Shown here: positions 28,055 through 33,282 of the stretch, in pieces
How the letters are laid out: each line of letters opens with the position of its first letter
Numbering within the stretch: position 1 is the stretch's first letter
NCBI GenBank assembly: GCA_947428835.1
Contig: CANENE010000002.1
Span: forward strand, 142,901-206,900
DNA: 64,000 nt
Direction: 5' to 3'
Source of the DNA: an uncultured bacterium
GTDB taxonomy: Bacteria; Cyanobacteriota; Vampirovibrionia; Gastranaerophilales; Gastranaerophilaceae
Translations under genes and position numbers: made by a program
The notes under the pieces: generated by a model
The model's database searches: none
What the model was told of the DNA's origin: nothing
What the model saw: the letters and a program-made list of their open reading frames with translations, nothing else

Positions 28055-31000
28055 ATGAAAAAAGTTATTGCGTTTGACTTGGGTAAGGCAAGTATCGGTT
28101 ATTGCATAAGAGAAGGTCTTGATATAAAAGAAGCAGGTTCAATTATTATTGATAAAGACCATGGCGAAATTACAAGTAACAGAACAAGAAGGTGTGCTAA
28201 AAAAGTACTAAATGCCCACAAAGAGCGCGAAAATTTTTTTAATAAAATTTGGGAAGAGTGTGGTTTGCCGGTATTAAGTAAAGAAGATTTGTTATTTACT
28301 AAAGAGTTTGCAAATAAGAATGATAACACTATATATAATTCATGTTTATTAAGAATTGCCCTGCTGCAAAATGTACAGTTGGAAACCTGGCAAATTTATA
28401 AAGCTTTACATTCTGCTATTCAAAGAAGGGGATATGATGCAAATCTTCCTTGGGCAAATGCTAATTCTAAAAATTCTGATGATGAAGAAAATGAAAAACT
28501 AACTTTAAAATATACGCAAGAAAATGATAAAGAACTTATAATATCTGATGAATATAAATATCCTTGTTATTACGACGCAACAAGGCTTGGTTTATGGAAT
28601 GAAAATTTACCAAATACTTTTTCAAAAAACATATCTGTAAAAAATTCAAACAAAGTAAGGACAAGCGGCTTGGTTGCTCCAAGAAATCTTGCTGAAAAAG
28701 AATTAAGAAAATTGTGGGAAAATGCGCAAAAACAGCTGTCGAGGCTTAATAAAATTCCGGCAGAATATTTTTTATATGGTGAATATTGCATGGCTTATGG
28801 ATCTTACCTAAAGCCGGAATTTAAAAAATATCGCGGGACATCTTATGATTGGCAAGGGGTTTTGTGCCAAAAAATACCAAGATTTGATAACAGGGCAAAT
28901 TCAAAATGCAAACTGCTTCCTAAACGTAACGTATCTAAAGCGGCAACTATAGAAAATATTACTTTTACTTTGTTGATGAAATTAAAAAACTTAAGATTCA
29001 ATACAGTGGACACTCTGTTTGATGGAGTTGCAAGAAGGCTAAGCCCTCAAGAAATTAAAGAGATTATTGAAACAAAAAAGACAAAAGATAGTTGGGAAGA
29101 AAAACTCTTATCGGTTAAAAGTGGCAAGAATCCGACTTTTACTATAACAAAAGGTGATATAGAAGCTGTTATCGGCAAGAAAACTATATTAGATAAATTA
29201 GAGCCATTGAAAGCAAATATTTCCGGTCGTTCAAGTTTTTGCAGACGTGCTTGTTCAATTATGAATAAAATTATTCTTGAAGGAGAATTGTATCCATCTG
29301 ATATGGATGTGTCGGAATTTGTTGATAAGCCTAATGTCCCAAACGGTATTACGGAAGAAGAAATCAGGCAAATGCTATCTAAGATTGGCGATTGGAATAA
29401 TTTATTTATTCCTGATAACAGAAATGAATTAAAACAAACAGATTCTGATATTAGGGAACAAACGGATATTTTAATTGCAAATATAACTAATCCCATAGTA
29501 AGAAACAGATTGCAAATACTTAGAGATTTATTGCTTGATATTAAACAAAAAGAGGGGTTTAACAATCCTGATGAAGTAGTATTTGAATTTGTGCGCGATG
29601 GGGCAGACAGCTCATTATTACCCGGCAAAAAAGCATCAGACTATGAAAAGTATATCAAAGCACAAGAAAAATATAATGAACAATTGGTCAAAGAATTAAA
29701 AGATGTTGATGCTTATTCTTCTATTAATTTCGAAAAATTTAAATTACTAAAATCTCAGGATATGAAATGTATTTATTCGGGAAAACCTATAGGAATAAGC
29801 GATTTAACGCAATGCGAAATTGATCATATATATCCTCGCGCAAAAGGAGGCAATGATGCTCTTTACAATAAAGTATTGTGTTATGCGATTGAAAATCAAA
29901 ATAAAGCCGGCCGCACTCCCTATGAATGGATGCAAAGTGACAAAGATAGATGGCAGGAGTATTTTCAACGAATGTCTAATATAAAAACAAAATTAGGCAA
30001 AAAGAAATTTGAACTTTTGACAAAAAAACCAAAAGATTGCGAAGAACTAATTGAAAGTTATAACGGTCTTGCAGAGACTGCGCAAATTGCAAAAGTTGCA
30101 CAAGAATTGACCGTGATAATATTCGGATGGGGCCTGCAAACAAAAGGCGATAAGCGTCACATTTTTGTAAATAATGGAAGCTCTACTGCTGCAATAAGGC
30201 GCAGATATGGCCTCAATAAAATTCTTGGTGATGACGTAAAAAAGAATAGAAGCAATGATAAGCATCATGCCTTGGATGCTATTTGTGTAAGTTTTTCAAG
30301 AGATTTTAAATATAATAAAGAGATGAATGCTGATGTCATTGAAGGCTTTACATACGATATAGTTAAAAAAGCAATTGATGCAATAATTCCATATCCTTAT
30401 GCAAATAAAAAACCGTTTAAAGGTAACATTAGACCCCTTGAGACAATATACGGATATAGAAAGGTTGATGATAAAGACTGTATTACATCAAAAGTTCCAA
30501 TTACTTTAATAAAACAAAAAGAAACCAATATAAAAAATATTATTGATGAAGTGATTAAAAATGATTTGTTAGATAAATTAGAACTCAATCTTTCAGCAAA
30601 AGAATGGGAAGAAATGCTAAAAAATTATGTTCATCCCAAAAAACAAACTAAAGTCAAAAGAGTTTTAACAATTGTTTCTTGCGGCGCTTTGGAAAAAGAT
30701 ACCAACGGACGAGCTCGTATAGGAGAGTTTGCCGATTTTGGTACAAAAGGTGTTAAAAATCAATTCAAACATTCAAAAGGGCATAAGGGTCAAATTCTTT
30801 ATTACAATGAAAAAGGCGCAATTAAGGTTATGCCTGTTTATGCAAATATCAAAACGCAAGATGTTAAAAACAAGCTGCTTGAAATGAATTGCAAGCTTTA
30901 TAATAAAGGTCAAATGTTTTATTCGGGCTGCTTGGTTGAAGTACCTGTGGAATTTAAAGCAGGCGCTAATACTTATCCTGCAGGAATATATAAACTAAGA

Positions 31001-31108
31001 ACTATAATGTTTAATGGCGCAATTAAGCTTGAAAACAATAGCGGTATAGAAATAGTAACAAGTGCCGTTAATCTCGCTAACGCTAATTTTAAGAAATTTT
31101 CAAATTAA
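28055..31108 (+). CDS. cas9: Cas9 endonuclease, type II-C
   Basis: An RNA-guided DNA endonuclease of 1017 aa, the compact II-C size. All nuclease residues are visible: RuvC-I Asp8 in IAFDLGKASIGY, RuvC-II Glu511 in VVFEFVR, HNH Asp590-His591 in EIDHIYPRAKGG with Asn in ENQNKAG, and RuvC-III His738/Asp741 in HHALDA. The arginine-rich bridge helix (RTRRCAKKVLNAHKER) begins near residue 49. HNH numbering is close to Neisseria Cas9 (His588). AAAGGAG lies before the ATG, and a TATAAT box at 28025. It leads a cas9-cas1-cas2 operon; no csn2 or cas4 is present. The gene appears intact. Confidence 0.96.
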   Translation: MKKVIAFDLGKASIGYCIREGLDIKEAGSIIIDKDHGEITSNRTRRCAKKVLNAHKERENFFNKIWEECGLPVLSKEDLLFTKEFANKNDNTIYNSCLLRIALLQNVQLETWQIYKALHSAIQRRGYDANLPWANANSKNSDDEENEKLTLKYTQENDKELIISDEYKYPCYYDATRLGLWNENLPNTFSKNISVKNSNKVRTSGLVAPRNLAEKELRKLWENAQKQLSRLNKIPAEYFLYGEYCMAYGSYLKPEFKKYRGTSYDWQGVLCQKIPRFDNRANSKCKLLPKRNVSKAATIENITFTLLMKLKNLRFNTVDTLFDGVARRLSPQEIKEIIETKKTKDSWEEKLLSVKSGKNPTFTITKGDIEAVIGKKTILDKLEPLKANISGRSSFCRRACSIMNKIILEGELYPSDMDVSEFVDKPNVPNGITEEEIRQMLSKIGDWNNLFIPDNRNELKQTDSDIREQTDILIANITNPIVRNRLQILRDLLLDIKQKEGFNNPDEVVFEFVRDGADSSLLPGKKASDYEKYIKAQEKYNEQLVKELKDVDAYSSINFEKFKLLKSQDMKCIYSGKPIGISDLTQCEIDHIYPRAKGGNDALYNKVLCYAIENQNKAGRTPYEWMQSDKDRWQEYFQRMSNIKTKLGKKKFELLTKKPKDCEELIESYNGLAETAQIAKVAQELTVIIFGWGLQTKGDKRHIFVNNGSSTAAIRRRYGLNKILGDDVKKNRSNDKHHALDAICVSFSRDFKYNKEMNADVIEGFTYDIVKKAIDAIIPYPYANKKPFKGNIRPLETIYGYRKVDDKDCITSKVPITLIKQKETNIKNIIDEVIKNDLLDKLELNLSAKEWEEMLKNYVHPKKQTKVKRVLTIVSCGALEKDTNGRARIGEFADFGTKGVKNQFKHSKGHKGQILYYNEKGAIKVMPVYANIKTQDVKNKLLEMNCKLYNKGQMFYSGCLVEVPVEFKAGANTYPAGIYKLRTIMFNGAIKLENNSGIEIVTSAVNLANANFKKFSN

Positions 31109-31130: not shown

Positions 31131-31168
31131 TTAAATGTAATATATGAGCTATCATATATTACATTTAA
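31131..31168. promoter_or_regulatory. Perfect 17-bp inverted repeat covering the cas1 start
   Basis: Left arm 31131-31147 and right arm 31152-31168 are perfect complements with a 4-nt loop (GCTA). The cas1 ATG (31144-31146) lies inside the left arm. In mRNA it would form a stable hairpin hiding the start codon; in DNA it would make a 38-bp dyad. No Shine-Dalgarno sequence precedes cas1, so translation may depend on ribosomes or proteins opening this structure. Confidence 0.7.
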
Positions 31169-32067
31169 CTATTCCAAATATTTCATTGTATACCGATAAA
31201 GGTTTTTTATTTTGCAAATATGATGATGAAAGCGCAAATAAAATACCTTTAGATGATTTAAGAGCGGTTATAGTTGCAACACATCAAGTTTCTTTTACAA
31301 ATACCTGTCTTGCAAAATTATTGGAAAATGATGTTATAGTTTTGCACTGTGATAATCATTATAAGCCTGTTGGTTGGTCTGCGGCTTTAGATAGGGTAGT
31401 TAGAGTGAAGGCATTTTTAAATCAAATATGCCAAGATAAAAAATTTGAAAATGAGCTGTGGAAAATAATTTTGAAGGCAAAAGTAAATAACCAATCACAA
31501 AATTTGAAGTTGCTTGGCTGTGATAATGCCAATATAGAAAGACTCATAAATAAACCCCTGCTAAGCGAAGCAAATATTGCAAAACAATATTGGAAACTAT
31601 ATTTTGAAGCACTTGGTGTTAAAACAAAAAGAGAACATAAAGATGCTAAAAACTTTGAAAACGCCTGTTTAAATTACGGCTATGCTGTAATAGCAGCTTT
31701 AATTTATCGCTCATCTTTGGTACATGGGCTTTGTCCGAATCTTGGAATTCATCATAAACAAAATTATAGGAGTATTCCTCTTATTTATGATTTGATGGAG
31801 CCATTTAGGCCATTTATAGATTATTATTTATACAAATTTAAAATGGAAGATGGTGAAAAAAATCACAAGAATTGGTGCAAATATTTATCTTGCTGTTTGC
31901 AAAATTGCAGATTAAAATACAAGGATTTTAATTATAAATTGATTGATTATATCGATTATTATATTGAGGCAATAACAAGAGCTTATATAGATTTTGATGT
32001 TAAGGAGATAGTTGTTCCTGATTTGAATGAGATGATTTTATTGATGCAAAAGAAAGATAATTTATGA
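31144..32067 (+). CDS. cas1: Cas1 integrase, type II
   Basis: The catalytic subunit of the Cas1-Cas2 spacer integrase, 307 aa. The type II subgroup pattern is clear: an N-terminal beta domain (LRAVIVATHQVSFTN, LLENDVIVLHCD), and catalytic helices with Glu in NFENACLNYGYAV, His in PNLGIHHK and the acidic DLMEPFRP segment. It starts inside a 17-bp inverted repeat and has no ribosome-binding site. It overlaps cas2 by 4 bp (ATGA), so cas2 is translationally coupled to it. Confidence 0.95.
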   Translation: MSYHILHLTIPNISLYTDKGFLFCKYDDESANKIPLDDLRAVIVATHQVSFTNTCLAKLLENDVIVLHCDNHYKPVGWSAALDRVVRVKAFLNQICQDKKFENELWKIILKAKVNNQSQNLKLLGCDNANIERLINKPLLSEANIAKQYWKLYFEALGVKTKREHKDAKNFENACLNYGYAVIAALIYRSSLVHGLCPNLGIHHKQNYRSIPLIYDLMEPFRPFIDYYLYKFKMEDGEKNHKNWCKYLSCCLQNCRLKYKDFNYKLIDYIDYYIEAITRAYIDFDVKEIVVPDLNEMILLMQKKDNL

Positions 32068-32411
32068 GGAGCAAATATCGAATGGGATGGTTGTTTGTAT
32101 GTTTTGATTTGCCTGTTGTAGAAAAAGAAGATTTAAGACAGGCAAATGCATTTAGAAAAGACTTGCTTAAACTTGGTTATTATATGCTTCAGAATTCAAT
32201 GTATGTGAAAGCATGCGTAACATATGAAAAAACCGAGAAGCATATCAAACGGATAAAAACCATAGCTCCAACAAGCGGCAGCATACAGATATTTTTTATT
32301 ACAGATATACAATGGAGCAAATCTGTCTGTATACAAAAAACTGATTATAAAAAATCAAAATACCTTAAAGATATAGGTGAAAATATCCCCGAACAAATGA
32401 CTTTTTGGTAG
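32064..32411 (+). CDS. cas2: Cas2, type II
   Basis: The structural subunit of the spacer integrase, 115 aa. The ferredoxin-like start is seen as MGWLFVCFDLPVVEKED, with the conserved Asp after the first strand, followed by FRKDLLKLGYYMLQNSMYVK. The start overlaps the end of cas1 by 4 bp. A second ATG at 32082, with AGGAG 11 bases upstream, would give a protein starting at MGWLF and is a credible alternative. Last gene of the cas operon. Confidence 0.93.
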   Translation: MRSKYRMGWLFVCFDLPVVEKEDLRQANAFRKDLLKLGYYMLQNSMYVKACVTYEKTEKHIKRIKTIAPTSGSIQIFFITDIQWSKSVCIQKTDYKKSKYLKDIGENIPEQMTFW

Positions 32412-32454: not shown

Positions 32455-32543
32455 TTTAGAGAATGAGATTATTCGTACAATGTAGAGGAATTAACTATTC
32501 TCTGTTCAATTCTGATTGGACTAATAATTTAAAATATCTTATG
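32455..32543 (-). ncRNA. Probable tracrRNA
   Basis: Read on the minus strand, this segment has an anti-repeat for the CRISPR repeat. Its upper stem (32521-32537) pairs 17 of 17 bases with repeat positions 12-28. Its lower stem (32509-32517) pairs the first 9 repeat bases GTTTTGATT with two G-U wobbles, and a small bulge separates the stems as in Cas9 guide duplexes. Downstream follow a hairpin (AGAGAAT/ATTCcTCT, 32497-32503 with 32484-32491) and an alternative partner at 32458-32464. A TATAAT box lies at 32549-32554. The 3' end is not marked by a clear terminator, so the left border is approximate. Confidence 0.8.
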
Positions 32544-32581
32544 CATTTATTATATAATATTTATTCAGATTTGTATATCCT

Positions 32582-33073
32582 ATTATAATATATTTTAAAT
32601 TATTAGTAAATCAAAACGAGGAGAACCTCCAGTACCTTGAGTTGTTATTATAATATATTTTAAATTATTAGTAAATCAAAACGCACTCCAGTCTGTTGCA
32701 AGCCCTATTCCATTATAATATATTTTAAATTATTAGTAAATCAAAACCACGGTACTTTATACTCCTCCCCGTCTATATTATAATATATTTTAAATTATTA
32801 GTAAATCAAAACATTATCACTATACATAATGTTTCCAGTCTTATTATAATATATTTTAAATTATTAGTAAATCAAAACATTGGCGCGCTTTTTGCTTATT
32901 TATTCATATTATAATATATTTTAAATTATTAGTAAATCAAAACATACAGTATCTTTGTAATTGCGTAAAACTATTATAATATATTTTAAATTATTAGTAA
33001 ATCAAAACATTGGGCTTGATTGAATGTTATCCATTATATTATAATATATTTTAAATTATTAGTAAATCAAATC
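32582..33073 (-). CRISPR. Type II-C CRISPR array, 8 repeats and 7 spacers
   Basis: Eight 36-bp repeats start at 32582, 32647, 32712, 32777, 32843, 32908, 32973 and 33038. Spacers are 29 nt, except the fourth, 30 nt. The first seven repeats are identical; the last differs at position 35 (T for A on +). In crRNA sense (minus strand) the repeat begins GTTTTGATTTACT and ends TATATTATAAT. The minus strand is chosen because the tracrRNA anti-repeat fits that orientation and GTTTT is the usual type II start. Repeats contain a promoter (TTTACT-N17-TATAAT), so each spacer may be transcribed separately. Confidence 0.97.
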
Positions 33074-33176: not shown

Positions 33177-33196
33177 AAAATGCCAAAAGGCATTTT
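33177..33196 (-). terminator. Terminator of tRNA-Gly
   Basis: Stem AAAATGCC/GGCATTTT with loop AAAA on +. On the minus strand it is followed by a T-run, 11 bp downstream of the tRNA. Confidence 0.75.
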
Positions 33197-33207
33197 ACTC
33201 TTTATAA

Positions 33208-33282
33208 TGGAGCGGGAGACGAGGCTCGAACTCGCGACATCTTCCTTGGCAAGGAAGCATTCTACCACTGAATTACTCCCGC
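33208..33282 (-). tRNA. tRNA-Gly (anticodon GCC)
   Basis: On the minus strand the acceptor GCGGGAG pairs with CTCCCGC, the anticodon arm is TTCC-TTGCCAA-GGAA giving anticodon GCC, and the T-arm has GTTCGAGCC. Discriminator T is followed by an encoded CCA (33208-33210). Confidence 0.95.

Follow-up and report, generated by a model that had tools for sequence, protein, structure and literature searches.

A predicted tracrRNA between cas2 and the CRISPR array of a type II CRISPR-Cas9 locus in a Gastranaerophilales bacterium

The 64-kb stretch of DNA analysed here (the window) comes from a 1.8 Mb draft genome and contains a CRISPR-Cas locus with the organization cas9-cas1-cas2, lacking csn2 and cas4 as in II-C systems, followed after a gap of 170 nt by a CRISPR array (Table 1). 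The Cas9 residues D8, D590-H591, H737-H738, and D741 are invariant among ten homologues, and by sequence the expected catalytic residues are intact. An RNase III gene (rnc) is found in the genome. The nearest named relative is a Candidatus Gastranaerophilales MAG (locus L032), whose Cas9 shares 74% identity with that of the window; no Cas9 relatives were found in viral_contigs. AlphaFold modelling of the Cas9 without an alignment gave an unusable model (pLDDT 34).

Table 1. Features of the CRISPR-Cas9 locus, in window coordinates.
Feature	Coordinates	Strand	Details or basis
cas9	28055..31108	+	1017 aa; NCBIfam NF049971 Cas9d 977 bits, TIGR01865 255 bits
cas1 (type II)	31144..32067	+	TIGR03639 155 bits
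cas2	32064..32411	+	TIGR01573 55 bits
Predicted primary tracrRNA, about 87 nt	32456..32542	-	promoter spacing, conserved tail, covariance model
Predicted tracrRNA tail hairpin, AGAGAAUAG...CUCAUUCUCU	32458..32503	-	conserved CCUCU and small hairpin UACAUUGUA lie inside it
Anti-repeat	32509..32537	-	two helices flanking a bulge: 32520-32537 with repeat 11-28, 32509-32517 with repeat 1-9
tracrRNA -10 box, TATAAT	32549..32554	-	sequence
Invariant 11-nt motif AGGATATACAA adjoining the terminal repeat	32571..32581	-	contains the -35 box; identical in 12/12 loci
tracrRNA -35-like box, TATACA	32572..32577	-	17 bp from the -10 box
CRISPR array	32582..33073	-	eight 36-nt repeats separated by seven spacers (29-30 nt)
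Terminator-like hairpin following tRNA-Gly, ahead of the array	33177..33196	-	sequence

A sequence-only reading of this region had placed a tracrRNA in the gap that separates cas2 from the array, encoded in the opposite direction to the cas operon. Both the position and the strand hold, with the segment between the cas2 end (32411) and the terminal repeat (32582-32617) free of genes and the candidate RNA encoded on the minus strand, opposite to the plus-strand cas genes. The proposed pairing is likewise exact, in that minus 32521-32537 (ATATTTTAAATTATTAG) is the perfect reverse complement (17/17) of positions 12-28 of the minus-sense repeat (GTTTTGATTTACTAATAATTTAAAATATATTATAAT), and minus 32509-32517 (AATCAGAAT) pairs at 9/9 positions with repeat positions 1-9, including two G-U pairs. 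The bulge reported between the two helices is present, with tracrRNA UCC facing repeat U10-A11. Co-folding of the crRNA repeat with the tracrRNA, a check suggested at the outset, returns the same architecture (helices with repeat 1-9 and 11-28, an intervening bulge, and an independent tail hairpin; total energy -32.7 kcal/mol), with repeat A11 pairing with the first U of the bulge UCC and extending the inner helix to 18 bp.

This pairing is far beyond chance. The duplex energy is -24.4 compared with -11.3 +/- 2.1 for 2000 dinucleotide shuffles of the gap, only one of which reaches -24.4, and the duplex ranks first among 12,670 stretches from both strands of the window (z = -9.2). At -24 kcal/mol it is nonetheless weak for its length, because the anti-repeat is very A-T rich. 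A better anti-repeat elsewhere in the genome had been named as the observation that would count against the assignment; a search with the 17-mer core and BLAST found none. Elsewhere the core occurs only in the array repeats and as a single one-mismatch chance copy in an A-T-rich stretch, and BLAST of the whole 121-nt region against its own genome gave no comparable match. Other tracrRNA-like matches in the genome look like short A-T-rich or coding chance matches and were set aside. An Rfam search of the tracrRNA region gave no match other than a chance snoRNA (E 4.4).

The TATAAT box noted near the anti-repeat lies on the minus strand at 32549-32554, and its separation from the upstream TATACA is exactly 17 bp in 11 of the 12 close loci, so that the tracrRNA has what reads as a conserved promoter of its own. 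Transcription is expected to start near 32542, the 5′ end being placed from the -10 box; the 3′ end is uncertain. The motif that contains the -35-like box, AGGATATACAA, is probably also the leader anchor for spacer integration. Downstream of the anti-repeat, the predicted hairpin is present at minus 32458-32503. No T-run (U-tract) follows it in the window or in other Gastranaerophilales members, and as judged from these sequences it is not a recognisable intrinsic terminator. The close loci retain an outer stem, the CCUCU, and an ACG in the tail, and in the four distant loci the stem sequence differs although each tail is still predicted to form a hairpin.

Among 193 relatives searched with the Cas9d model, 18 genomes scored above the cut-off, and 16 loci, including that of the window, have a usable array and constitute the anti-repeat test set. 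In all 16 the strongest anti-repeat outside the array lies just inside the cas-proximal array end and on the opposite strand to cas9, a placement and strand kept down to 30% Cas9 identity. The covariance across homologous loci that had been proposed as a check is evident in an alignment of the 12 closest loci (A1), in which repeat and anti-repeat change together and the named structure is 95% paired. Eleven pairs are changed on both sides where 4.6 are expected (27 cells), none of 500 shuffles matches any of the measures, and sliding the partners by 1-3 columns reduces the pairing from 95% to 35-43%. Five pair types are seen across the loci at repeat position 14. An RNA covariance model (R1) matches in 14 of the 193 genomes, once in each and always beside cas9 in a Cas9d carrier; the window's tracrRNA is recovered at E 9e-16 (G000:C2:175353-175448, minus), and three distant matches are weak (E 0.001-0.005). 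One genome of the same class (G144) has two separate Cas9d loci (L045 and L046); their repeats differ, and in each locus the anti-repeat matches the local repeat.

The array is also read on the minus strand, such that tracrRNA and crRNA are co-directional, and every repeat ends, in the minus sense, in a -10-like TATAAT. Repeats of II-C systems that carry their own promoters in such -10-like ends have been described (PMC12080349, PMC4607530, PMC7038990). In the direction in which it is read, the array is closely preceded by a tRNA-Gly gene (gcc; 33208-33282, minus) and then the terminator-like hairpin, which resembles the insulating terminators reported ahead of II-C arrays (PMC12080349). Mutated or degenerate end repeats are confined to the cas-distal end, and G251, a genome from the same genus as that of L032, has only the cas-distal spacer in common with the L032 array. 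These observations point to the cas-proximal end as the acquisition end, and spacers are most likely acquired there, beside the tracrRNA and at the end of the array that is transcribed last, as reported for other II-C systems (PMC12080349). The near relatives L035 and L039 share no spacers. The match to G251 in the protospacer search is to an array sharing the old spacer and not to a target; the matching segment (L101:14283-14848) is an apparent decayed array remnant with repeat mismatches of 7, 4, and 0 that holds the oldest spacer of the L032 array. In another relative, a transposase-like ORF of 321 aa (L045:3352-4317) lies within the CRISPR array, in a 1194-nt interruption.

Six protospacers, each with 26-31 matching bases, were identified for L032 array spacers in other genomes of the family. 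Their 3′ flanks in the minus-strand crRNA sense are taaac, taacc, caacc, aaaac, cagaa, and taaac, with NAA(A/C)C in common (information p = 5e-5 by simulation), and there is no signal on their 5′ side (p = 0.45 by simulation). Cas9 PAMs are located 3′ of the protospacer, and the side on which this PAM-like signal falls thus indicates that the crRNA is the minus strand. Matches of spacers from two other arrays have the A-rich 3′ flanks taag, cgag, and gaag, together with ggcc at a doubtful 27/30 match, and are too few to define a PAM for the Cas9s of those arrays. By extrapolation from L032, the PAM of the window's own Cas9 may be A-rich and NAA(A/C)C-like.

The tracrRNA assignment made earlier is supported by position and strand, by co-variation, by the promoter and the tail hairpin, and by strict co-occurrence with a single Cas9 family. 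We conclude that the RNA encoded by minus 32456-32542 almost certainly acts as tracrRNA for a chromosomal type II CRISPR-Cas9 system in a Gastranaerophilales bacterium. The region does resemble an inverted repeat unit, and in an A-T-rich genome such a copy could represent a dead, degenerate CRISPR repeat left behind by a rearrangement rather than a functional RNA gene; this is highly improbable, being contradicted by the compensatory changes shared with the repeats across species, the invariance of the promoter, the strict co-occurrence with Cas9, and the presence of a conserved tail that has no homology to the repeat. Watson-Crick complementarity is also symmetric, and there are promoter-like sites on the plus strand too, such that the array and anti-repeat could both be transcribed along with the cas genes. 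We give this arrangement very little credence, as the wobble positions of the duplexes include 31 G-U and only 2 A-C pairs, and the 31 would become mismatches if the plus strand were the one transcribed; the PAM-like signal is on the 3′ side of protospacers in the minus sense, and it is the minus-sense repeats that end in the -10-like TATAAT, as do II-C repeats (PMC4607530, PMC7038990).

With the minus-strand tracrRNA as the preferred reading, the RNA would be transcribed opposite to the cas genes, and its 5′ anti-repeat would pair with positions 1-9 and 11-28 of the repeat in each minus-strand crRNA. RNase III would presumably trim the resulting duplex, and Cas9 may hold the tail hairpin with its conserved CCUCU; loaded with crRNA and tracrRNA, Cas9 would then cleave DNA in which the spacer sequence is followed by an A-rich 3′ PAM. 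RNase III processing and cleavage are standard steps in type II systems. We infer that the RNA is transcribed, processed, and bound by Cas9, and we likewise infer its 3′ end.

The arrangement also allows, in addition to a separate tracrRNA and not in place of it, for read-through from the newest spacer to generate a natural single-guide RNA, in the order spacer, terminal repeat, 44-nt loop, anti-repeat, and tail. The terminal repeat and the anti-repeat core are co-directional and 44 nt apart, a distance that is fixed because the newest repeat always adjoins the leader, and a sequence scan found no terminator between terminal repeat and anti-repeat. Given these features and probable acquisition beside the tracrRNA gene, the most recent spacer could be expressed as a built-in single guide, and RNA running from the terminal repeat to the tail is predicted to fold into the same duplex in cis in 12/12 loci. 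We nevertheless regard this as speculative and rather unlikely, as the tracrRNA's own conserved promoter makes read-through unneeded, and adding the window's newest spacer leaves the duplex in place in the predicted fold while perturbing the tail hairpin. If true, it would favour the most recent spacer without requiring pairing in trans or RNase III, and it is testable because the newest spacer lies at a constant distance from the tracrRNA. It is not specific to the Gastranaerophilales and could be general, as Campylobacter jejuni also has its tracrRNA downstream of the array.

The closest known layout is the II-C system of C. jejuni, in which a 73-nt tracrRNA is encoded downstream of an array of promoter-bearing repeats, has 24 nt of complementarity to the 5′ part of the repeat, and matches repeat changes between species (PMC4607530). 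The window's locus shares with it the location of the tracrRNA downstream of the array and behind a -10 box (PMC4607530), repeats that each finish in a -10, complementarity of the tracrRNA to the 5′ portion of the repeat, a tracrRNA that follows changes in the repeat, and a cas gene complement of only cas9-cas1-cas2. It differs in that there is no detectable Rfam-level sequence relation, the repeats are almost pure A-T, the -35-like box is within the 11-nt invariant leader motif, and the host is a non-photosynthetic cyanobacterial relative. The predicted tracrRNA is of a known kind with a C. jejuni-like layout, in an unrelated lineage. The II-C systems of Clostridium cellulolyticum (PMC7038990), Pasteurella pneumotropica, and Defluviimonas (PMC7708072) have Cas9s of a similar size class (1021-1079 aa), and their arrays are read against the cas genes where tested; C. 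cellulolyticum also has promoter-like repeat ends (PMC7038990). All three have the tracrRNA upstream of the cas genes, whereas in the window it lies between cas2 and the array.

Assignment to a subtype is ambiguous, the sequence evidence indicating a type II system with II-C-like anatomy whose Cas9 is classed as Cas9d by one model (NCBIfam). NF049971 matches the whole of the window's Cas9, as for II-D/Cas9d, with 977 bits against a cut-off of 375, and the NAR or NRC PAMs of some Cas9d members are compatible with an A-rich PAM here (PMC9755519, PMC11706934, PMC12669027). Unlike the II-D system MG34-1, the window's Cas9 has 1017 aa rather than 747, and the predicted tracrRNA is about 87 nt compared with a 158-nt sgRNA. 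The II-C side of the ambiguity derives from the absence of cas4 from the locus, where Makarova et al. note that II-D loci share cas1, cas2, and cas4 (PMC12669027); from the nearest solved structures by profile, which are Cas9s of 1055-1154 aa (110-128 bits); and from the solved 747-aa Cas9d (8zq9/9auf), which matches the window's Cas9 with only 39 bits and in the HNH region only. The sole Cas4-like match in the genome is inside a 1004-aa frame on another contig. By sequence, three features of II-C systems (PMC12080349), promoter-bearing repeats, an array opposite to cas, and acquisition at the downstream end, all appear to be present. A Campylobacter-like II-C layout far outside that phylum, combined with a Cas9 that NCBIfam assigns to Cas9d, bears on the division between II-C and II-D.

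We found no publication pairing a tracrRNA with Gastranaerophilales among open-access PMC papers, in agreement with the sequence-only reading, which knew of no published description of this guide RNA. Together with the crRNA and a PAM hypothesis derived from a close relative, the predicted tracrRNA completes the guide set of a compact, ~1000-aa Cas9 from an uncultured gut Gastranaerophilales bacterium, such that the system can be tested in vitro.

No protospacers were found for the window's spacers, either by exact matching of three spacers to IMG/VR or in a search of all seven against 383 genomes, and one relative's spacer has no exact matches in IMG/VR. A phage collection contained nothing for the relative's array, and its sole match to the window's array, in a Bacillus phage, was judged to be chance. 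One L032 spacer, GGACTGGGGTTCGATTCCCCACACCTCCAG (L032:12336-12365), resembles the 3′-terminal part of a tRNA or tmRNA gene, where prophages commonly attach; integrated elements or the host's own DNA may be its targets. Ten genomes of the family (L107 and L109-L117, at ~position 1501) contain a match of 27-29 out of 30 bases to one L040 array spacer, suggesting that the target of this spacer is a widespread conserved mobile element.
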